A stretch of 64,000 bases of DNA from an uncultured SAR116 cluster alpha proteobacterium (GTDB taxonomy: Bacteria; Pseudomonadota; Alphaproteobacteria; Puniceispirillales; Marisalimonadaceae): the NCBI GenBank assembly GCA_902615995.1, contig CACMRF010000001.1, forward strand, positions 119,008-183,007. The letters run 5' to 3'. How positions within the stretch are numbered: position 1 is the stretch's first letter; each line of letters begins with the position of its first letter. The position numbers and the translations under genes are program-made. Positions 50,669-64,000 of this stretch are shown here, piece by piece. The notes under the pieces were generated by a model. The model made no database searches and had not been told where the DNA came from. It saw only the letters and a list, made by a program, of their open reading frames with translations.

Positions 50669-50808
50669 AATTAATCCGAATGTAATTTTAAACTAATTTA
50701 AAAATAATTTTCAATAAAAATTATTCTAATAGTTATAAAATGATTCGATTATATCTTTTAATTTAAACTATACTAAATTTGTTGTATAAATAATAATTGA
50801 TACCTAAA

Positions 50809-51330
50809 ATGAGATTCTATAATCACAAATCATCAGCCATATTTGATATTTATTTAAAATTATATGACAGTGAGCTTAGTTTTGAAAAAAAAAAACTAAT
50901 ATTTAAATCATTATTAATTGGTGAATCATGGTCTTGGAAAATTACAGGCATTTCAAAATTATGTCTAGAGAGTTTTAAAAAAAATAAATTTGAAAAATCT
51001 AGAAAACTCAAAACAAAACGTCAAACTGTAAAAAATGTGATACGTCATCAACTTACAAATGTTGACAAAACAATTAAAGATATTTTTATTACCAAAAGAA
51101 CTAAAGAAGAATGGTGGGATAAAATTCTAACCGAAGAAAAAACTCATCTGGTCACAAAAGATGAATTGAAAGAAGAATATTATTTATTTACTGATATTCC
51201 AGAAGATGGTGGATATTTTATTAATGGTACAACAGGATATCTTTATAGCGAAAAAGAAAAACTTTTATTAAAACATATTAATAAAACTAAAATTTTGTGG
51301 AAAAGAAGTAATGATCCTTTAATGCAATAA
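50809..51330 (+). CDS. Hypothetical protein
   Basis: ORF from internal ATG MRFYNHKSS; no family recognised. Confidence 0.55.
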   Translation: MRFYNHKSSAIFDIYLKLYDSELSFEKKKLIFKSLLIGESWSWKITGISKLCLESFKKNKFEKSRKLKTKRQTVKNVIRHQLTNVDKTIKDIFITKRTKEEWWDKILTEEKTHLVTKDELKEEYYLFTDIPEDGGYFINGTTGYLYSEKEKLLLKHINKTKILWKRSNDPLMQ

Positions 51331-51495
51331 GCCATTCTTAAGATGAGTATATTTTAATGCATAATAAAATAGCATCTGATTAAAATACTGTTTTTAATTT
51401 AGTCATATTTTTAAATTAGATTATTTCTAGAACTGAAATCCAATGATTAAATGTTAAGTATGATATTAAATATTTAACTATTAAAGAGGTGAATT

Positions 51496-51696
51496 ATGTT
51501 TCAAGCAATTATATCCGTATGTAATTTAATAAATATGGAGTGCATGCTACTCAAAGATACTGTAGGTTTAATCAATACTCATAAAGAATGTACAGTAAGA
51601 GCTGAAAACATGCGAAAAGATTTTATTGATTTATATAAAGGACCAGTGATTATAGAAAAAAATTGTATTAAACTGAATAACTATAAAGGTGCATAG
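51496..51696 (+). CDS. Hypothetical small Cys-containing protein
   Basis: 66-aa ORF with upstream AGAGGTG RBS-like sequence. Confidence 0.5.
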   Translation: MFQAIISVCNLINMECMLLKDTVGLINTHKECTVRAENMRKDFIDLYKGPVIIEKNCIKLNNYKGA

Positions 51697-51750
51697 AAAT
51701 TAAAAGTATTTATAGCTAGACTTAAAGCATTTTAATTTATAGTTTTAGTA

Positions 51751-52113
51751 ATGGCTAAGTTGTTATTTAATATTACTAATGGTACTAACAATCCTACCAA
51801 AGCATCTTTAGGTTTTATGCTGGCCAGGACCGCAGTTGAAGAAGGTCATGAGGTTCAAGTTTTCTTAAACGCTGATGCTGTAAGTCTGATTAGAAAACCT
51901 GTATTAGATAGTTTAGTTGGCTTAGGTACTGGTAAACTTAGCGAGCATTTCAATATTTTAGTTGATGCAAATGTTCCTATTTACGTGTCTGCAATTTCTT
52001 GTGAAATTAGAGGTGTGACAGATAAAGATCTTAAAGAAGCTAATTCAATAAAAGTTTTTCCAAAAACACTGCTTAGTTTGTCTTTACAAGCAGATAGAAC
52101 CTTTGTTTACTAA
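51751..52113 (+). CDS. DsrE/DsrF-like family protein
   Basis: KLLFNITNGTNNPTKASLGFMLARTAVEEGHEVQVFLNADAV. Confidence 0.8.
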   Translation: MAKLLFNITNGTNNPTKASLGFMLARTAVEEGHEVQVFLNADAVSLIRKPVLDSLVGLGTGKLSEHFNILVDANVPIYVSAISCEIRGVTDKDLKEANSIKVFPKTLLSLSLQADRTFVY

Positions 52114-52139
52114 AAGCTTTTAACCATTATAAGATAAAC

Positions 52140-52336
52140 ATGCAAAAATTTTTGATAATCTTAGGTATAATAAACTTAGTTATAGGATTAATTTATCCTT
52201 ATCCTTAGAATTAAGTCTCGTTCAGTTACCTAGTGGTATAATTTTCAAATCAGAGAACTCATTATTTTTCTTTCCATTAGCTAATTGCGTAATAATTATC
52301 ATTGTTTTGATAATAATGTTTAATTCATTTGAATGA
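52140..52336 (+). pseudogene. DUF2905-like small membrane protein, interrupted by a 1-nt frameshift
   Basis: Frame 1 MQKFLIILGIINLVIGLIYPYP* continues without gap in the -1 frame as LELSLVQLPSGIIFKSENSLFFFPLANCVIIIIVLIIMFNSFE*. Confidence 0.6.
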
Positions 52337-52345
52337 ATCGAATTT

Positions 52346-52681
52346 CTAATTCTTTAACTCTAAAAAATATAAAATAAAAATAATTATAATAATCATTCCA
52401 AAAATTTTTAGATAATCTGTTTTTTTTTCTTCAACTTCAACTTCATTAATTTCAGAAATTTCTTGCCTTTGGATTTTGATTATTTTCTTCAAATTTTTTA
52501 TTTTTTTGTAAAAATAATAATTTAAAAAAAATGATGTCAATAATGATATAGGCCCTATTATTAGAAATAACCAAATATTGATTTCTTCATAACTGATGCT
52601 AAGTAAACCTGCAATTTTATATAAAAAATTAACACACCAATCAAAAGTAATATCTATCCAATTAATTCCTGAATCTGCCAA
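52346..52681 (-). CDS. Hypothetical membrane protein
   Basis: 111-aa ORF with two predicted TM segments. Confidence 0.55.
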   Translation of the reverse strand: MADSGINWIDITFDWCVNFLYKIAGLLSISYEEINIWLFLIIGPISLLTSFFLNYYFYKKIKNLKKIIKIQRQEISEINEVEVEEKKTDYLKIFGMIIIIIFILYFLELKN

Positions 52682-52766
52682 AATTGACCCTTAAAAATAT
52701 AAATGGTTTAAATTCTAAATTAAAACATAATCAATAGTAATGTTCAAATTTCAAAAAATAATATTT

Positions 52767-53183
52767 TTATTTTTTAGTAATTTTTTCATGATCAAATTCT
52801 TTATCTACTGGAACTTTGATACCATTTAAAAGATTATTTGTTCGACCAGCAAGGGATACTATTGACAAAAATTCAGCATACTGATCATCTGTCATTCCTT
52901 GAGCACGAGCTGCTGCTGTGTGTGAATGAATGCAATATTCACAGCTATTAGCAATAGATACTGCAGCATAAATGAGTTCTTTAGTTATTGAATCAAGATG
53001 ACTTGGTTTTGCCATAACTTCTTTTACGTCACGCCATGTTTTTTCAAGTAATTCAGGATTAAAAGCTAAGTAATACCATAAATTGTTTATAAAATCGTTC
53101 CCACGCGTAGCTCTAATGTCGTCAAAAACTGATTTAACGCGGGGATTTTCTTCAGGATTTTGAAGGCGTGGTATAGTTGACAT
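52767..53183 (-). CDS. Carboxymuconolactone decarboxylase/AhpD-like family protein
   Basis: SCEYCIHSHTAAARAQG (CxxC-H) motif. Confidence 0.88.
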   Translation of the reverse strand: MSTIPRLQNPEENPRVKSVFDDIRATRGNDFINNLWYYLAFNPELLEKTWRDVKEVMAKPSHLDSITKELIYAAVSIANSCEYCIHSHTAAARAQGMTDDQYAEFLSIVSLAGRTNNLLNGIKVPVDKEFDHEKITKK

Positions 53184-53327
53184 TCAATAACCTTTCTTTT
53201 AACAACCTTATTAATAATCCTAACACATCGTCTTTAAGCAAACAATGTAAGGATTTCTTTGCTTTAGCTAAATATATACTGGTGAAAATTTGAATATTAA
53301 TAGATTTTGTAATTAATTTTTTTTGAA

Positions 53328-54818
53328 TTATCTAATAATAAATGGATTTGAAACTGAAGTCTGCTCTGCTATCCAAATTGATTTTGTTTGCAAAAATTCT
53401 TTAATAGATTCTTGGCCACTCTCTCTACCTCTTCCTGATCGTTTATAACCTCCAAATGGTGACATGAAGCTTACAGCTCTATATGTATTAACCCATACTG
53501 TTCCCGCTCTTAAACTGTCAGACATTCTTAAGGCTCTACCAATATCATTAGTCCAAACCCCGGCAGCTAAACCAAATATTACATCATTTCCTACTTTTAT
53601 TGCTTCTTCTTCATCCTTAAACTTAATTATAGATAATACTGGCCCAAAGACTTCTTCTTGAGCAATCCTCATTTTGTTTTTTACATCAGTAAAAATTGTT
53701 GGCTCAACAAATCTATCTCCTTTTATATCCTTACTAGAATAAGCATTTCCTCCTAAGATACATTTTGCACCTTCTGATTTTGCAATATCTATATAGTTCA
53801 TAATCTTTTCAAATTGTGGCTGAGTTGTAACAGGCCCAACATGTGTTTCAAATGACATTGGATCTCCGATTTTTGCTTCACTTGCAACTTCAACAAGTCT
53901 TTTAACAAATTTTTCATAAATCGTTTCTTGTACTAACAAGCGAGAACCTGCAATGCATGTCTGACCTGTTGCGGCAAATATACCTGAAATAACTCCCATT
54001 ATAGCAGCTTCAAAATCCGCATCTTCAAAAACGATGTTTGGTGATTTTCCTCCTAATTCTAATGAAACAGGCATTATTTTTTTAGCTGCAGATTCATATA
54101 TTTTTTGACCAGAAACATCAGAACCAGTGAATGCAATTTTAGATACATGTTTATGTTCAACGAGTGGTTGACCAACATCAACACCCATTCCCGTAATACA
54201 ATTTACAACTCCATTTGGGAATCCTGCCTCTGATACTAGTTTCATAAATTCTAAAGTTGATGCCGAAGTAAATTCAGATGGTTTTATTACCGCAGTATTT
54301 CCAGCAGCTAAAGCTGGAGCAAGCTTCCAAGACAAAAGAAGTAAAGGAGAATTCCAAGCTGTTATCATTCCTACAACACCAAATGGCTCATACTTAGTAT
54401 AATTAAAAATTCCAGGTTTGTCTGAAGGTAAAACAGAGCCTTCAACTTTGTCTGCAAGTCCTCCAAAATATCTATACCATTCTGCAAGATACTTCGTTTG
54501 TGCTGCCATTTCAGCAATTAACTTTCCATTATCTTGAACCTCTATTTCACCAAGTTTTTGAGCATCTCTCTCAACAAGTTCCGCAAGTTTTACAAGTAGT
54601 TTACCTCTTTCTGTAGGTTTTGTTTTAGACCAATTATTTTCAAAAGCTTCCTTTGCAACATTTACTGCAATATCGACATCATAAGCATTTCCTTTAGCAA
54701 CTTTTGCCCAATTTTCGCAAGTATATGGATTTTCAGTATCAAAATATTCTCCACTATTTGGTCTCATTTCTTTTCCATTAACGAAATGATTATATGTTTT
54801 CATAATATTCTCCGTCAC
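53328..54818 (-). CDS. Aldehyde dehydrogenase (NAD(P)+)
   Basis: VSLELGGKSPNIVFEDAD, GQTCIAGSRLLV, PFGGYKRSGRGRESG. Confidence 0.95.
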   Translation of the reverse strand: MTENIMKTYNHFVNGKEMRPNSGEYFDTENPYTCENWAKVAKGNAYDVDIAVNVAKEAFENNWSKTKPTERGKLLVKLAELVERDAQKLGEIEVQDNGKLIAEMAAQTKYLAEWYRYFGGLADKVEGSVLPSDKPGIFNYTKYEPFGVVGMITAWNSPLLLLSWKLAPALAAGNTAVIKPSEFTSASTLEFMKLVSEAGFPNGVVNCITGMGVDVGQPLVEHKHVSKIAFTGSDVSGQKIYESAAKKIMPVSLELGGKSPNIVFEDADFEAAIMGVISGIFAATGQTCIAGSRLLVQETIYEKFVKRLVEVASEAKIGDPMSFETHVGPVTTQPQFEKIMNYIDIAKSEGAKCILGGNAYSSKDIKGDRFVEPTIFTDVKNKMRIAQEEVFGPVLSIIKFKDEEEAIKVGNDVIFGLAAGVWTNDIGRALRMSDSLRAGTVWVNTYRAVSFMSPFGGYKRSGRGRESGQESIKEFLQTKSIWIAEQTSVSNPFIIR

Positions 54819-55050
54819 TTATTCTCATGAATTTCAAAAATTTGTTTCTTATTATTATAATAGTTATTTTTTATAAATTTTTATTTTTATCTCATATTTT
54901 TAGTAAAAAAAGAATCTTAAAATATATATTTAATATTAACTAAATATTGTCTGAAGATAATTAAAAGATTTAAAGACACCTCTAATAAATAATATTTAAA
55001 TAAATTGCTTTTTATACTAAATTATTAAATGAACTATTTGGTAATTAAAC

Positions 55051-55704
55051 ATGCAAGCAATTTTTTTTGGTTCTATAGGAACTATGGTAGAAACTTCTGA
55101 AATTCAACGTAAAGCATTTAATACAGCCTTTAAAGAATTTGGATTGAATTGGTACTGGAATACTGGAAATTATATCAATATGATCCAAAAGCCGGGGGGA
55201 ATTTCAAGAATTAAAGAATATTCGAAATTAAAGCTTAAAGATAGTGAAGTAAAAAAAATATATGATCTTAAAATTAAATATTTTAGAAATTATTCTGATA
55301 ACTGTGTAAAACCAAGGGAAGGTGTTTTAGACATTATCAACTATGCAAATAGAAATAATATAAAGCTTGGCTTTATTACAACAACTTCTAAAGAAACTAT
55401 TGAGATTATAAAGGATAGTTTATCGAAGTTTATCAATTTTAATGACTTTGATCTTATTACATATGAAAAAGATTGTGTTAAAAAGAAACCTTATCCGGAC
55501 ATATACAATTTTGCTATTAACAAACTCAAAGTTGAAAAAAATAATTCAATTACAATTGAAGATACCCCTATAAGTTATGCTTCATCAAAAAAAGCCAAAA
55601 TTAAGACTATCTTATTTCCTGGTGAATATTCAGTGAATAAAAAAAATATATCATCCACGTACAAAATTTTTGAAGAAGTTAAAAATTTTTTTGAGAAAAA
55701 ATGA
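55051..55704 (+). CDS. HAD-superfamily-like protein lacking the catalytic aspartates
   Basis: HAD cap and core pattern (FITTTSKETIE, KKKPYPDIYNFAINKL, ITIEDTPISYASSKKA), but motif I reads FFGSIGT instead of FDxDGT. Confidence 0.75.
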   Translation: MQAIFFGSIGTMVETSEIQRKAFNTAFKEFGLNWYWNTGNYINMIQKPGGISRIKEYSKLKLKDSEVKKIYDLKIKYFRNYSDNCVKPREGVLDIINYANRNNIKLGFITTTSKETIEIIKDSLSKFINFNDFDLITYEKDCVKKKPYPDIYNFAINKLKVEKNNSITIEDTPISYASSKKAKIKTILFPGEYSVNKKNISSTYKIFEEVKNFFEKK

Positions 55705-55711
55705 ATTTAAT

Positions 55712-56752
55712 ATGGCTATAGTCAAATTAGAAAATGTTTCTAAGTCATGGGGAGATTTCAAGGCAGTTGATGATTTTAATTTAACTATAAATGATGAAGA
55801 ATTTTTAGTTTTATTAGGACCATCAGGATGTGGAAAAACAACAACCATGAGAATGATTGCTGGACTAGAAGAGTTATCTTCTGGAACTATTAGGATTAAT
55901 GATATTATAGTTAACGATCTTGAACCAAAAGACAGAGACGTGTCTATGGTTTTTCAATCATATGGTTTATATCCAAACATGAGTGTTTATGAAAATATAA
56001 GATTTCCTCTTAAAATTAGAAAAATAAAAAAGTCACTCCACGAAAAACTGGTTATGCGAGCTGTAAAAATGGTAGAATTGGAAAAATTTCTAAAAAGAAA
56101 ACCTGCAGAATTATCTGGTGGACAAAAACAGAGAGTTGCACTTGCTAGAGCATTAGTAAGAAATCCAAACATTTTTTTAATGGACGAACCTCTATCTAAC
56201 TTAGATGCAAAATTAAGAGTTTCGACACGAGCCCAAATAAAACATCTACAAAACAAACTAAAAATTACAACTATTTATGTAACTCACGACCAAGTTGAAG
56301 CAATGACCTTAGCAGATCGTGTTGTTGTAATGAATAATGGTAAAATTCAACAAATTGGATCACCAAGAGAAATTTACAATAGGCCCTTTAATACCTTTGT
56401 TGCTTCTTTTATAGGAAGCCCTCCCATGAATTTAATTCCAATATCTATTAAGAATAAAAAAACAATTTCTAAAGATTTAAAATTTTCAAATGTTAATATT
56501 AAAGATGGAAAATATATACTTGGCTTCAGAGCTGAAGATGCTAGTATAATAAGTAAAGGTAATTTCACTGGACCAATTTATTCAATAGAACTTTTAGGGG
56601 ATAGTACAATAGTTACACTAAAAATAAAAAATTATTTGTTAAATGTTAAAACCTCTAACAATTTTTCCTCAAGAATTGGTGAAATTATATCAGTAAAAAT
56701 ACCAAATAATTTATGTCATTTTTTTGATTCAAAAACTGGAATTCATTTATAA
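55712..56752 (+). CDS. Carbohydrate-type ABC transporter ATP-binding protein (UgpC/MalK family)
   Basis: LGPSGCGKTTTMRMIAGLE, LSGGQKQRVALARALVRNP; C-terminal TOBE-like domain; start at internal ATG. Confidence 0.94.
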   Translation: MAIVKLENVSKSWGDFKAVDDFNLTINDEEFLVLLGPSGCGKTTTMRMIAGLEELSSGTIRINDIIVNDLEPKDRDVSMVFQSYGLYPNMSVYENIRFPLKIRKIKKSLHEKLVMRAVKMVELEKFLKRKPAELSGGQKQRVALARALVRNPNIFLMDEPLSNLDAKLRVSTRAQIKHLQNKLKITTIYVTHDQVEAMTLADRVVVMNNGKIQQIGSPREIYNRPFNTFVASFIGSPPMNLIPISIKNKKTISKDLKFSNVNIKDGKYILGFRAEDASIISKGNFTGPIYSIELLGDSTIVTLKIKNYLLNVKTSNNFSSRIGEIISVKIPNNLCHFFDSKTGIHL

Positions 56753-56769
56753 ATAGATTGGAGTAAAAT

Positions 56770-57999
56770 ATGAATTTAATAAAGTATACTTTTTTGTTAA
56801 CAAGTTTTTTGTTTTTTTTGATAAAAAATTCTTTTGCCTGTGAAATAAAAGCAAGGGTAAGTGTTGTTGGAAACGAATTTCCAGCTATACAAACAGTTGG
56901 TGCAGGTGCAAAAAAATGTAAGGGTGCTGAAGTTAAAACAAACTTAACAGCTGACCATCAAAAAATTAATGTAGCCGGAATGAGTAGTAAACCAGCGGAA
57001 TACACATCTGCAATAGTTGCAAATACATCAATTGTCGCACTTTTAAACAACGATTTAATTAGACCTTTAGACGATCTAGTAAAAAAACATGGCTCAAAAC
57101 TTAAGAAAAATCAACTTATCACTATTAACGGTAAAGTGATGGCGGTAGCTTTTATGGCTAATGCTCAACATTTAGTTTATAGAAAAGACGTTTTAAATAA
57201 ACTTAATATTTCTGTTCCTAAAACATATGAAGAAATGTTAGCAGCTGCAAAAAAAATTCGGGAATCTGGTCTTGCAAAAAATCCTGTAGGTGGAGCTTAT
57301 AAAGCAGGTTGGAACTTGGCACAGGAATTTAATAATATGTTTATTGGATATGGTGGTAAACATTTTAAAGGTAACACGCCTGAACCAAACGTGAATTCGA
57401 ATGCTGGAAAAAAAGCATTAAATATGATGAAGTCTTTATCTGAATACATGAATCCAGATTTTTTAACTCATGATAGTAATGCTACGAACGCAGAGTTCAG
57501 AGCTGGTAACGTTATCTTGATGAATATGTGGGGAAGTAGAGCTGCAACACTAACTGATGCAGATGGAGTTTCTGAGGCTGTAAAAAAAGGAATGGATATA
57601 GCTGGTCCAATGACTGTTGGAGGTGGTACTATTCCAGCATCTACACTTTTTTGGGATGGTTGGACAGTTGCAAAAAAAATAAGTGATGCCGAAGCTGAGG
57701 CTACTTTTATTGCTATGATGAATGCAATAGACCCATCTATTATTAAGAATGATAATGTTAGAAAGCAAGCAGTTTGGCTTTTAGACGGATACACCCCAAC
57801 AGATGCCGCTAGAGGTGTTTTCGCAGCAGCAAAAATGAATACAACGCCTTACCCAATGCTTCCTTATGCTGGCTTAATGCATTCAGCTATAGGCGCAGAA
57901 ATTGCAGATTTTATGCAAGGTAAAGAAAACGCAAAAAAAACTTTGTCTGATATTGAGGATGCTTATCGTGCAGCTGCAAAAGAAAAAGGGTTTTTATAA
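56770..57999 (+). CDS. Carbohydrate-type ABC transporter substrate-binding protein (SBP family 1)
   Basis: Signal peptide; extracellular SBP pattern; flanked by permeases and ATPase. Confidence 0.88.
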   Translation: MNLIKYTFLLTSFLFFLIKNSFACEIKARVSVVGNEFPAIQTVGAGAKKCKGAEVKTNLTADHQKINVAGMSSKPAEYTSAIVANTSIVALLNNDLIRPLDDLVKKHGSKLKKNQLITINGKVMAVAFMANAQHLVYRKDVLNKLNISVPKTYEEMLAAAKKIRESGLAKNPVGGAYKAGWNLAQEFNNMFIGYGGKHFKGNTPEPNVNSNAGKKALNMMKSLSEYMNPDFLTHDSNATNAEFRAGNVILMNMWGSRAATLTDADGVSEAVKKGMDIAGPMTVGGGTIPASTLFWDGWTVAKKISDAEAEATFIAMMNAIDPSIIKNDNVRKQAVWLLDGYTPTDAARGVFAAAKMNTTPYPMLPYAGLMHSAIGAEIADFMQGKENAKKTLSDIEDAYRAAAKEKGFL

Positions 58000-58012
58000 A
58001 ATCAAATTCAAT

Positions 58013-58041
58013 AAACTAGAGAGACACGTTCTCTCTAGTTT
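58013..58041 (+). terminator. Intra-operonic hairpin between SBP and permease genes
   Basis: Perfect 12-bp stem AAACTAGAGAGA / TCTCTCTAGTTT followed by T-rich sequence. Confidence 0.75.
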
Positions 58042-58047
58042 TAAATT

Positions 58048-59073
58048 ATGAAGCATAAGACTTTTTTTTGGTTTATATTGCCAACGTTTTTGGCAATGTT
58101 AATTTTTATTTTTTTACCAATTATTTCTGTTATTTTACAATCAATCCACACACCACATGAAAATGTACTTGTCACAGTTGAAAATTGTGACCCTTTTGGA
58201 TGTAAAAAAGTTACATCTATTGACCATGAAGCTACAAAAAATTTAAAACAGTCCGAGCCTTTGGGTAAATTTGTTGGGTTAGATATCTATTTTGATAGAG
58301 GACACTTGGCGATTGAAAATTTTAAACTATTATGGAAAAACTCTAAAAATATTTCTTCATTTGTAAAATCCTTAGGTAATCTTCCATTTTATAAAGCTGT
58401 TTTTTTTACACTAACTTTTACATTCACAGTCACACCCATAATGCTTTTACTTGGTTTATTGATCGCTTTAGGTGTAAATTCTATAAGTAAAAAATTAAAA
58501 GGGATAGTAATTTTTTTTTCGCTGTTACCAATGATTGTAACTCCTCTTATTGGTTCAATAATATTATTTTGGATGATTGACTCACGAGGTATAATTGGTA
58601 ATTTAATACAATGGTTACTTGATGATCCTAATTTATCTCTTAAAGCTTCAACTTCATTAACTTGGATTATGTTAATTGTTTATGGAGTGTGGCATGCAAT
58701 ACCATTTTCCTTTATTGTATTTTATGCAGGATTACAAACTGTACCAAAAGATCAACTTGAATCTGCTAAAATTGATGGTGCTAATAAATTTGAAGAAGTA
58801 ATCTACATTATTATCCCTCATTTAATGCCATTAATTACATTTGTTACACTTATGCAATTAATGGATAATTTTCGCGTATTTGAACCTATTGTTGGTTTCA
58901 GTGCAGAAGCTCACGCTACTTCATTAAGCTGGATAATTTTTAATGACTTAGGAGGCGAAACACGACAGCTCTCAGCCGCAGCTACAAGCTCCATTTTGAC
59001 AATTATAGGAGTAATAATTTTACTTTCACCAGTTTTAGTGAGAACTTGGAGGGACTTTAAATTTAAAAAATGA
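58048..59073 (+). CDS. Carbohydrate-type ABC transporter permease (UgpA/MalF-like)
   Basis: ESAKIDGANKFEEVIYIIIPHLMP EAA motif. Confidence 0.93.
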   Translation: MKHKTFFWFILPTFLAMLIFIFLPIISVILQSIHTPHENVLVTVENCDPFGCKKVTSIDHEATKNLKQSEPLGKFVGLDIYFDRGHLAIENFKLLWKNSKNISSFVKSLGNLPFYKAVFFTLTFTFTVTPIMLLLGLLIALGVNSISKKLKGIVIFFSLLPMIVTPLIGSIILFWMIDSRGIIGNLIQWLLDDPNLSLKASTSLTWIMLIVYGVWHAIPFSFIVFYAGLQTVPKDQLESAKIDGANKFEEVIYIIIPHLMPLITFVTLMQLMDNFRVFEPIVGFSAEAHATSLSWIIFNDLGGETRQLSAAATSSILTIIGVIILLSPVLVRTWRDFKFKK

Positions 59074-59942
59074 CAAAAAAAAATTCAAACAGATTTTCTA
59101 TACTCATTTACTCATTTATAATTATTTGGGTTTTTTTAGCCTCATTTCCTTTCTTTTGGACATTTTGGGGTTCTTTTAAAGTAGAGCTAGATTTTTTTTC
59201 AATTTCAAATTGGTATAATGCAGTCACCGGGAAGAATACTTTTGATACCTACAACTCTCAGTTTACTGGAGCTGGTTATGAAGGAGCTTGGATTCAAGAA
59301 GAATTTTGGAGATCTTTTGTTAACTCAGCCATAGTTTGTTTTTTTGTTGTCTTAACCTCCCTAACAATTGGCACGTTAGGGGCTTATGCATTATCTAGGT
59401 CAAATTATAAATATACTTTTTGGCTCTTAATTACAGCTCTGATTTTTAGGGCAATGCCCCCAATTACTCTTGTGGCTGGATATCTACCACCTTTTTTTGA
59501 GTGGAATATTTGGGGGATATTACCAACAACTATAATCGTGCTAGTATCGATTAATCAACCTTTCACGCTTTGGATGCTACACTCTTTTTTTCAAAACATC
59601 CCTAAAGAACTTGATGAAAGTGCCAAGGTAGATGGATGCTCCCAATTTCAGGCATTTAGATACGTTATTATACCAGTAATGTGGCCTGGTGTAATAACAA
59701 CAGGATTATTTAGTTTTTTGTTAGCCTATAATGATTTTGCGGTGACTGCTATGTTATTATCTGATGAAAATAGAACTATGATACCAAAAATTGCTGCTTT
59801 TTTGGGAACGACTTATACTGAAGGAAATGTAATGTTCGCAGTTGCAGCTGTTGTTTCAGCTACTGTTCCACTTTTCATACTTGTAATATTTTTTCAAAAA
59901 AAAATAGTCAGTGGTCTTACACAAGGTGCCGTGAAAGGATAA
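59070..59942 (+). CDS. Carbohydrate-type ABC transporter permease (UgpE/MalG-like)
   Basis: ESAKVDGCSQFQAFRYVIIPVMWPG EAA motif; 4-nt overlap with the upstream permease. Confidence 0.93.
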   Translation: MTKKNSNRFSILIYSFIIIWVFLASFPFFWTFWGSFKVELDFFSISNWYNAVTGKNTFDTYNSQFTGAGYEGAWIQEEFWRSFVNSAIVCFFVVLTSLTIGTLGAYALSRSNYKYTFWLLITALIFRAMPPITLVAGYLPPFFEWNIWGILPTTIIVLVSINQPFTLWMLHSFFQNIPKELDESAKVDGCSQFQAFRYVIIPVMWPGVITTGLFSFLLAYNDFAVTAMLLSDENRTMIPKIAAFLGTTYTEGNVMFAVAAVVSATVPLFILVIFFQKKIVSGLTQGAVKG

Positions 59943-59948
59943 TAAATT

Positions 59949-61401
59949 ATGAAAAAAAAAATAATTCATTCAAAATTAACTAAAAACAATAATCTATCTA
60001 AAACCAAAGAAACGGAAAAAGTTCTAGAAAAAATGGTTGATGCTTTAAATGATCATAGAATAAAGGATATTGGAGAATTTTTTTCATCAACATTTAACTG
60101 GTTTGGAAATTATGGTTGTGGGACAAAAAAAGGATTAAAAGAATTTCAAAATAATTGGCAAGTACCTTTTCAAAAAGCTTTCTCAAATAAAGTATGTATT
60201 GATGAAGCTAGAATAGTCGTTGGAGAATGGGGTGCTTCTTTTGGCAGACAAGAAGCATTTCATACGGGTATATTCATGGGTATAAAGCCTACAAATAAAA
60301 AAGTTGAAATTAGATATATGGATTTTTGGAAAGTGAAAAACAAAAAAATAGTTAATAATTGGGTAATGGTTGATTTTCCTGGAGTTTTAAAACAATTAGG
60401 CTTTGATATATTTAACGGTGAAGGTTGGGAAAAATTTGATAAAAAAAATAAATTCCAAATTGGAAAAGATTTTAAAGTTGAAAAATTTATTTATGGAATA
60501 ACTGAAGAAATTTGGGAAAATAAAAAGATTAATTCTGTTTATGATTATTATAAAAAAGATGTTATTGTCAGATCTCCCAGGAAAACAACGTACAAATGTA
60601 ATGACGTAATCAATTCTACAATAGATACATTAAGTCAATTTCCTAATAGGCAATTGATTGGAGAAGATGTAATTTGGTCTGGAGATAATAAAAATGGTAT
60701 CTTAAGCTCACACAGAATTTTATCCACAGCAACACATAAAGGTAATGGTTTTTATGGAAAATCAACAGGAAAAAAAGTTATTTATAGAGTTATTGCTGAT
60801 TGTTTTATTATAGATAACAAGGTAGTTGAAGAATGGATAGTTAGAGATGAAAGTGCTATTTTAAATCAACTAGGATTGACTGCTAAAAAATTTGTAGAAA
60901 TGAAAATTAAAGAAAAGTTTTTCAATAAGAGATGTTTGAATTCTATTTCAAATGCTTTTGATGTTAAGAATATTATCACAAATAATTCTAATGAATTTAC
61001 TAAAACTTACATCTCGAATTTCAAAAAGTTAATTGACAAAGATTTTGATTTATTAAAAAAAAATTACGAGAGATCTGCTCAAACTTTCTGGCCAGGAGGA
61101 AAAATAAATTATTCGTATGAACAAATAAAAAAAATATGGTCAGATTTTTTGAATTGTTTTGAAGAATTAGAATTGATCATACACTTTTTTTCTGGAATGA
61201 CAGAACCAATTTTACCCCCCCCGAGTTGCCATAAGGTGGACAATTAAGGGAAAACATTTAAATAAAGGATATTACGGATGTCCATCGCAAAAGAATATTG
61301 AAATTGCTGGCATATCTCATGTCGAATTTGGAAAAACTGGAATAATTAGGGAATATGTCATCTTTGATGAAATATCTATTTGGAAACAGATATTACTTTA
61401 A
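59949..61401 (+). pseudogene. Triple SnoaL-like (NTF2-fold) domain protein, frameshifted at a C8 tract (apparent; may be sequencing error, phase variation or true pseudogene)
   Basis: ORF ends at 61247 after ...ILPPPSCHKVDN*; the other frame continues PPRVAIRWTIKGKHLNKGYYGCPSQKNIEIAGISHVEFGKTGIIREYVIFDEISIWKQILL* to 61401, the expected SnoaL-domain C-terminus. Confidence 0.8.
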
Positions 61402-61415
61402 TTATACTGCTTGTA

Positions 61416-62387
61416 ATGAGTAATTTTAACATTCAAGACAGGCTAGTAAGATTTGGTGAATTAATACCTTGCAAAACTGCATTTATTGATGCTCATACAC
61501 CTGGATCTAACTTAAAGGAAAATTTTACAATTATTGGAGCAGGAGTTTCTGAAAATCCTGATCAACACGTCCATATTAACATACCTCACGGTTTTAATAT
61601 TGGAGCTGCTGGTCAACCACCCAAATGTAATAATTCACTTCATAGCCACAGAACAGCTGAGGTGTTCTTTGTTTTATTTGGTAAATGGAGATTTTTTTGG
61701 GGAATTAACGGCAACGCTGGTGAAGTTATTCTTGAAAAAGGTGACATATTTAACATTCCTACAGGAATTTTTAGAGGTTTTGAAAATATAGGCGAATCGT
61801 ATGGTATGTTAATGGCTGTGTTAGGTGGAAATGACGCTGGTGGAGGCGTGATTTGGGCACCAAAGGTTTTAAATGACGCAAAACAACATGGCCTAATTTT
61901 ATCTGAAAAAGGAAAAATTTATGATACAAAATTAGGACAAAATCTACCTCATAACGAAAAAGAGATGCCCGCGTTAACGAAAAAAGAATTGTCACAATTT
62001 CCTGAGATAGAAGCTAGGAAAATTATACCTTTTTATGTAGCAAGATATTTGGATCTATATTCCTTATCAAAACAAAATTTTGTTTCAGTTATTGGCGAAC
62101 ATGGTATTCTTTATGATAAACCAGGTTTTGAGATAAATTTTATATCTGAAAAATGTACAAATAAAATTAAAAATTATTTTGATAAAGACTCCGTATTAAT
62201 GCCTATTGAAGGTTGTTGGAATATTGAAGCAGAAATTTTTAACTTAACTTTAAATCCTGGTGATACATTATCAGTTCCAAAAAATACACAGTTCAATCTT
62301 AAAACAACCAAACCTTATATGTCCTCAATGTATCAAGTAATACCTACAAATGATCCTGCTGGATCAACTCAATTACGAACTTCTTAA
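61416..62387 (+). CDS. Two-domain cupin (bicupin) protein
   Basis: LHSHRTAEVFFVLFGKWRFFWG...GDIFNIPTGIFRGFEN and C-terminal second cupin (LNPGDTLSVPKNTQF); start at internal ATG MSNFNIQDR. Confidence 0.82.
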   Translation: MSNFNIQDRLVRFGELIPCKTAFIDAHTPGSNLKENFTIIGAGVSENPDQHVHINIPHGFNIGAAGQPPKCNNSLHSHRTAEVFFVLFGKWRFFWGINGNAGEVILEKGDIFNIPTGIFRGFENIGESYGMLMAVLGGNDAGGGVIWAPKVLNDAKQHGLILSEKGKIYDTKLGQNLPHNEKEMPALTKKELSQFPEIEARKIIPFYVARYLDLYSLSKQNFVSVIGEHGILYDKPGFEINFISEKCTNKIKNYFDKDSVLMPIEGCWNIEAEIFNLTLNPGDTLSVPKNTQFNLKTTKPYMSSMYQVIPTNDPAGSTQLRTS

Positions 62388-63505
62388 TGACAATTTTAAC
62401 AACACATGTTGGGTCATTGCCAAGAAGCAAAAAATTGTCTGACCTTCTTTTTAAAAAAGAAAATAATGAATTTTATGATAAAGATTTATTTAATAAAGTT
62501 GTAAAGGAAGCAGTTTTTGACATTGTAAAAAAACAAAAAGAAGTTGGAATTGATATTATATCTGATGGGGAGATGTCAAAAATATCTTATGCAACTTATG
62601 TAAAAGATAGATACAATGGATTTTCAGGTGATAGTCCTAGAAATGCACCTTCAGATCTCAAAAGATTTCCAGGCTATTTAAAGAAATTAGCTGATAGTGG
62701 TGGAACACCAACTTATTCAAGACCTTGTTGTGTCTCTAAGATTTCTTCTAAAGGTGACAGTGAACTAGTTGCTGACATTAAAAATTTGAAGGACGCTATG
62801 AAAAAAAATAAGTTATCTAAAGGATTTATGAATTCAGCTTCACCAGGCGTTATATCATTATTTCTTGCTAATTCTTTTTATAAAACAAGAACAGAATATC
62901 TTGTAGCTATATCTGAAGCTATGGAAAAAGAATTTAATCTCATTGCGAACTCAGGATTAAACTTACAATTAGATTGCCCAGACTTAGCTTTGTCAAGACA
63001 CATGATTTTTTCAAAATTGAGTGATAAAGAATTTATAAAAATTGCAAATGAAAATATGGAAATTTTAAACCACTGTCTTCGTAAAATTGATCCAAGTATG
63101 TTAAGAATTCATGTTTGTTGGGGAAATTATGAAGGTCCTCATATTGATGATATTTCAATTAGTGAGATTTTCGAAATTATAATGTCATTTAGAGGCAATT
63201 ATATTTTATTTGAATCCTCTAATCCAAGACATGCTCATGAATGGAAAATATTTGATGATTTAAAAACTAAGATACCTGAAACAAAAATTTTAATACCAGG
63301 GGTAATAGATTCTACAAGTAATTTTGTTGAGCACCCAGACTTAATTTGCCAAAGACTAATGAAATTTATCAATATTGTTGGTAAAGACAGAGTTATAGCT
63401 GGATCAGACTGTGGTTTTGGCACTTTTGCAGGTTTTGGCAATGTTGACGAAGATATCGTCTATGAAAAATTAAAATCAATGACAACAGCGGCACAAAGGA
63501 TTTAA
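62387..63505 (+). CDS. Cobalamin-independent methionine synthase C-terminal (MetE-core) family protein
   Basis: TTHVGSLPRSKKL, DIISDGEMSKISYATYV, RIHVCWGNYEGPH, GSDCGFGTFAGFG. Confidence 0.88.
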   Translation: MTILTTHVGSLPRSKKLSDLLFKKENNEFYDKDLFNKVVKEAVFDIVKKQKEVGIDIISDGEMSKISYATYVKDRYNGFSGDSPRNAPSDLKRFPGYLKKLADSGGTPTYSRPCCVSKISSKGDSELVADIKNLKDAMKKNKLSKGFMNSASPGVISLFLANSFYKTRTEYLVAISEAMEKEFNLIANSGLNLQLDCPDLALSRHMIFSKLSDKEFIKIANENMEILNHCLRKIDPSMLRIHVCWGNYEGPHIDDISISEIFEIIMSFRGNYILFESSNPRHAHEWKIFDDLKTKIPETKILIPGVIDSTSNFVEHPDLICQRLMKFINIVGKDRVIAGSDCGFGTFAGFGNVDEDIVYEKLKSMTTAAQRI

Positions 63506-63512
63506 TGTCAGC

Positions 63513-64000
63513 TTAATCTTTTTTAAAATTTAAATTTATCCAAATTACTAACATTATGAAATATGCGTTTAAAATATACCAAATAACTTCAAAAATTGAT
63601 TTAAATTTATCTAAAAAATTTATACTTAAGGAATTTAAAAGTAAAGTAAGTGAGACAAAGATCAAACCAATAGCAATGATAGAATTTTTTCTTTTATGAT
63701 TTTTATATCTCATAGGATGAATTACTTTAATAGGAATTATCTTTAATGATATTAAAACTACAAGTATGATTAAATTATTCCAAACGTTTAAATCTAAAAT
63801 CGATAAATAAATAATAATAACATTCCAAATAGAAGGAAATCCTATATACAAATAATTTTGCGTCATTATTTTTAAATAAGAAAAAGAAAATAAAGAAATA
63901 CTTAATATTATTATCGGCAAAACAATTATAAATTGTTCAGGCACATAATTGAATTTGTAAATAATTATACACGGTATGAATACGTAGTTTATATAATCGA
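63513..64000 (-). CDS. pcs: Phosphatidylcholine synthase-like CDP-alcohol phosphatidyltransferase, C-terminal part, truncated by window end
   Basis: Reading frame stays open to the edge: DYINYVFIPCIIIYKFNYVPEQFIIVLP...NYLYIGFPSIWNVIIIYL...KVIHPMRYKN, matching the Pcs C-terminal pattern; ORF-track GTG start at 63944 is internal. Confidence 0.75.
   Translation of the reverse strand, partial: DYINYVFIPCIIIYKFNYVPEQFIIVLPIIILSISLFSFSYLKIMTQNYLYIGFPSIWNVIIIYLSILDLNVWNNLIILVVLISLKIIPIKVIHPMRYKNHKRKNSIIAIGLIFVSLTLLLNSLSINFLDKFKSIFEVIWYILNAYFIMLVIWINLNFKKD

Follow-up and report, generated by a model that had tools for sequence, protein, structure and literature searches.

In the window, the 64,000-nucleotide stretch of DNA analysed here, a run of eight C residues interrupts a SnoaL-like gene, and we consider it probable that this C8 is a natural C7 tract to which amplification, sequencing or assembly erroneously added one base. 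We favour this explanation because all relatives read through the site and because the assembly's only rpsE carries the same +1-C lesion. Sequencing error was one of several options offered by an earlier, sequence-only reading of this DNA, and it is the best supported of them. The window forms the end of contig C1 of a genome of 1.27 Mb in 47 contigs (56.6% complete), whose shape and kin suggest that it was probably assembled from a single amplified cell of a SAR116-type marine alphaproteobacterium.

The C8 tract and the frame beyond it

The features of the locus are as follows.

55670–59942, + strand: ABC transporter genes (ATPase, substrate-binding protein and two permeases), intact, upstream of the SnoaL gene
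59949–61247, + strand: apparent 432-aa ORF with SnoaL-like domain 1, domain 2 and a truncated domain 3
59949–60446, + strand: domain 1, a separate SnoaL gene of 166–167 aa in G002 and G012
60442–60449, + strand: A8 tract at the junction of domains 1 and 2; A9 in loci L033 and L034, A6-TAA in L038, the TAA ending the first gene there
60462–61214, + strand: domain 2 plus the beginning of domain 3, which relatives carry within a separate gene of about 321 aa with a TTG or ATG start
61215–61222, + strand: C8 homopolymer, one base over the in-frame state (C7 in G008; 25 of 25 orthologous loci in frame)
61222–61401, + strand: displaced final 59 codons of domain 3, in another frame and apparently still under purifying selection, as judged from in-frame identity, codon changes relative to relatives and a structure model
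61416–62387, + strand: cupin protein gene, downstream, intact
62387–63505, + strand: MetE-like protein gene, downstream, intact

The run CCCCCCCC occupies exactly 61215–61222, and its first base, 61215, opens a codon in the frame that starts from the ATG at 59949. This frame crosses the run as CCC CCC CCG AGT TGC and ends in EPILPPPSCHKVDN before the stop at 61247, while the other frame, starting with CGA at 61222, encodes RVAIRWTIKGKHLNKGYYGCPSQKNIEIAGISHVEFGKTGIIREYVIFDEISIWKQILL in 59 codons and stops at 61399–61401. The tract, the early stop and the restored frame up to 61401 are thus all as the sequence-only reading had claimed. The C8 is the window's sole C/G run of at least 7 bases; dinucleotide shuffles of the window contained a mean of 0.07 C8 matches, with at least one C8 in 5 of 100 shuffles. 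Genome-wide, two C8/G8 runs are observed where about 0.5 are expected from base composition, and the length of the tract is therefore unremarkable by itself. The second of these runs lies in frame inside a substrate-binding protein gene.

Orthologues were defined as relatives that encode the segment downstream of the tract. After removal of the window itself and of duplicate loci, 25 distinct loci were retained: six from the same genus, locus L037, eight from the sister genus g2 and ten that are more distant. In all 25 the frame is unbroken through the site, including at least 138 codons upstream, and the window has one base more, which bears out the proposed frameshift. Relatives of the same genus have 6 nt (two codons) at the site versus 7 nt in the window. 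The sequence is C7, in frame, in G008; TCCCCCC in G007 and G012; TCCCCTC in G002; TCGCCTC in G004; TCTCCCC in G009; and CATCCTA in L037. The sequence-only reading had also asked whether orthologues might naturally end at the first stop, which would speak against the loss of a third domain, and none of the 25 loci does so. Its view that the segment after the C8 is a true SnoaL-like domain end was confirmed as well, as the segment is 93–98% identical, and in frame, in the six genus relatives. No relatives of the protein were found in viral contigs.

Over these 59 codons the window differs from G004 by 8 synonymous changes and 1 replacement (dS 0.25, dN 0.007), from G012 by 9 synonymous and 2 replacement changes, and from G002 by 11 and 4, respectively. 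Three codons after the tract occur in the window alone; the sole replacement among them falls where relatives vary (S, P, L or F). Judged from these codon changes, the frame beyond the C8 looks as if selection acted on it until very recently or is acting on it now.

An equivalent lesion in rpsE

Pattern searches and extracted stretches were used to check C/G runs across the genome. Among 31 runs of at least 6 bases, two break a reading frame, the C8 of the window and a C7 in rpsE, and both do so by +1.

G000:C34:2298–2304 (L110:1299–1305): rpsE C7 tract with one extra C; 8 of 8 relatives one base shorter

The rpsE gene lies in an otherwise ordinary and intact spc operon (rplF, rplR, rpsE, rpmD, rplO, secY). 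The ORF before its tract matches positions 2–93 of the 156 in the S5 model, and the C-terminal domain begins in another frame; a second copy of this domain was not found in this assembly. All eight genus relatives with rpsE have one base fewer at exactly that place. Since S5 is essential in bacteria, a living cell with a frameshifted sole copy of rpsE is very unlikely, and a lesion of the same type as that in the window is therefore present in a gene that the cell cannot do without. We take the rpsE lesion to be technical and to share a common cause with the window C8: a natural C7 tract would have gained one C during amplification, sequencing or assembly, and the underlying SnoaL gene would be ordinary and intact, encoding a two-domain SnoaL-like protein.

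Both frame breaks are among the six longest C/G runs of the genome, which has a random chance of about 0.03. The other C8/G8 run and three further 7-base runs are in frame, and long tracts in this assembly are therefore not always in error. The window also contains 55 A/T runs of at least 8 bases inside ORFs, and A/T runs thus appear to be mostly assembled well. A G6 run at G000:C5:16834, considered as a third frame break, was rejected because it represents the natural fliP/fliQ overlap.

The pattern resembles indel errors at homopolymers in assemblies of amplified or single-cell genomes: two of the longest C/G runs each gained a single base, and rpsE, which contains one of the two, is essential. 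It differs in that the other long runs are in frame. A literature search found no direct homopolymer indel rate for single-cell amplification. Mismatches and indels in single-cell assemblies have been described without mention of homopolymers (PMC5519541). Weighing against a technical origin, some AT-rich symbionts may tolerate real frameshifts in essential genes via transcriptional slippage, although at long A/T tracts (PMC3017870).

Domain architecture and operon context

The sequence-only reading described a triple SnoaL protein. The window ORF does span three domains, but its nearest relatives carry two overlapping genes instead. In G002 and G012 a TAA located at the junction A tract terminates the domain 1 gene, which is overlapped by a gene for domains 2 and 3 with a TTG start; L037 is likewise split, as is L035, a more distant locus. 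As assembled, the window has A8 at 60442–60449 instead of the A9 of L033 and L034, which joins the two overlapping genes into the 432-aa ORF. A true triple fusion of 487 aa, with three recognised SnoaL domains, occurs in the sister genus g2, for example in G016. The g2 triple-domain copy in G035 (L011, G035:C20) has an internal TGA in domain 2.

Domain 1 varies among the genus relatives. In G004 (L033:5001–5500; G004:C1 about 66580–67080) it is broken twice, once at the A tract that follows its start codon and once by a TGA within the domain. G007, G009 and G008 (L036, L098 and L099) are without domain 1, and their two-domain gene starts ATGAAAAAAAAT; this would fit a loss of domain 1 between the A tracts of the start and the junction, which resemble each other.

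The 432-aa ORF scores 98.1 bits against PF07366 (curated cut-off 28.4), and the separate genes of relatives score 63.7 and 52.6 bits. The displaced segment aligns with positions 70–126 of the 126 in the Pfam SnoaL model, with a score under the curated cut-off. A structure model of the two-domain orthologue (mean pLDDT 71.5, moderate confidence) consists of two SnoaL-type domains, the second of which, domain 3, has strands at 242–255, 263–274, 287–298 and 303–310 and a C-terminal helix. The break lies between the first two long strands of this domain. According to the model, the window stop would remove everything past about residue 262, that is, three of the four long strands and the last helix, and domain 3 of the window protein would lack a complete alpha+beta cone.

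Sequence comparison and fold, like the profile, identify the protein as SnoaL-like; the best fold matches of the two-domain orthologue are AclR, IdmH, KstA15, ChaU and SnoaL2, at about 20% identity. The protein thus shares SnoaL domains and structure matches with known SnoaL-like proteins (PF07366; AclR 2gey, SnoaL2 2gex/8r2b, IdmH 6hnn, ChaU 8kaa), but differs from them in its tandem domains, in its low identity and in its genetic setting, a transporter operon instead of a polyketide cluster. A small-molecule enzyme that acts on an imported compound is a plausible function. The gene is placed between a sugar-type ABC transporter and the cupin and MetE-like genes in a conserved operon. The sequence-only reading had called this operon otherwise intact; this holds for the flanking genes, but the single ORF itself rests on a second homopolymer difference, A8 versus A9.

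The SnoaL region of the operon was found in 7 of 13 genus genomes, all of them incomplete. The region (55051–63505) was not found in the likewise incomplete G005 and G011, which are the closest by rpsE (96% and 95%). Identity to G004 drops from 94.5% (1–50742) to 89.6% (51186–64000), with about 440 bp unaligned between, and 50742–51186 is a possible recombination boundary.

Alternative origins of the extra C

A genuine and very recent private frameshift, in which a C7 tract slipped during replication and left this cell or lineage with an inactive domain 3, is unlikely but is the strongest of the alternatives. C7 is natural at the site in G008, and slippage raises homopolymer indel rates. When 63.6 kb were aligned to G004, the in-gene frame-breaking gaps fell in the SnoaL locus, and the other gaps were compensated pairs, at gene ends or in an ORF without counterpart; this concentration is the main argument for real decay. 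Against a technical error, the A8/A9 indel, the broken domain 1 of G004 and the lost domain 1 of G007–G009 fit relaxed selection and real decay at this locus. The internal TGA in G035 and the presence of the SnoaL region in just 7 of 13 genomes, all incomplete, likewise favour a private frameshift. However, replacement changes after the tract are not in excess, all six genus relatives with the two-domain gene carry it intact, and the rpsE lesion of the same type points to a technical source.

A broader proposal is that the SnoaL locus is a hot spot at which homopolymer length changes repeatedly fuse (A9 to A8), split or truncate (C7 to C8) tandem domains, including the domain 1 loss in G007–G009, such that cells of one species might carry different protein forms. 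We regard this as improbable.

Phase variation, also offered by the sequence-only reading, would have reversible C7/C8 slippage toggle domain 3 within a population. Here a C8 within a coding region, where a one-base change toggles the frame, resembles the poly-C/poly-G contingency tracts described for Campylobacter and Neisseria (PMC8355987, PMC5084427). Unlike at those loci, the tract is not conserved, with C7 present in a single relative and a shorter or broken run in the rest (at most C6 or interrupted in 6 of the 7 nearest orthologues), and phase variation is therefore not supported. Moreover, the genome has no set of such loci, its only other C8/G8 run being the in-frame one in the substrate-binding protein, and a cytoplasmic SnoaL-like enzyme would be atypical as a switched surface factor. 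We consider phase variation very improbable.

Equally remote is the production of some full-length protein by a shift on the C run, either as programmed +1 ribosomal frameshifting or as slippage during transcription: the downstream frame is intact and selected, but the slippery run is missing from most orthologues, all of which encode the protein in one frame and are single-frame at the site rather than sharing a slippery site with two conserved frames, and no stop directly follows the run, the zero-frame stop lying 22 nt past the tract.

If the C8 is an error, the practical value of this result lies in the correction: counting the gene among pseudogenes or switches would be wrong, and the assembly, with rpsE also affected, is unfit for claims that rest on long C/G runs. 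Were the C8 real, it would amount to a minor example of a free-living marine bacterium losing a domain.
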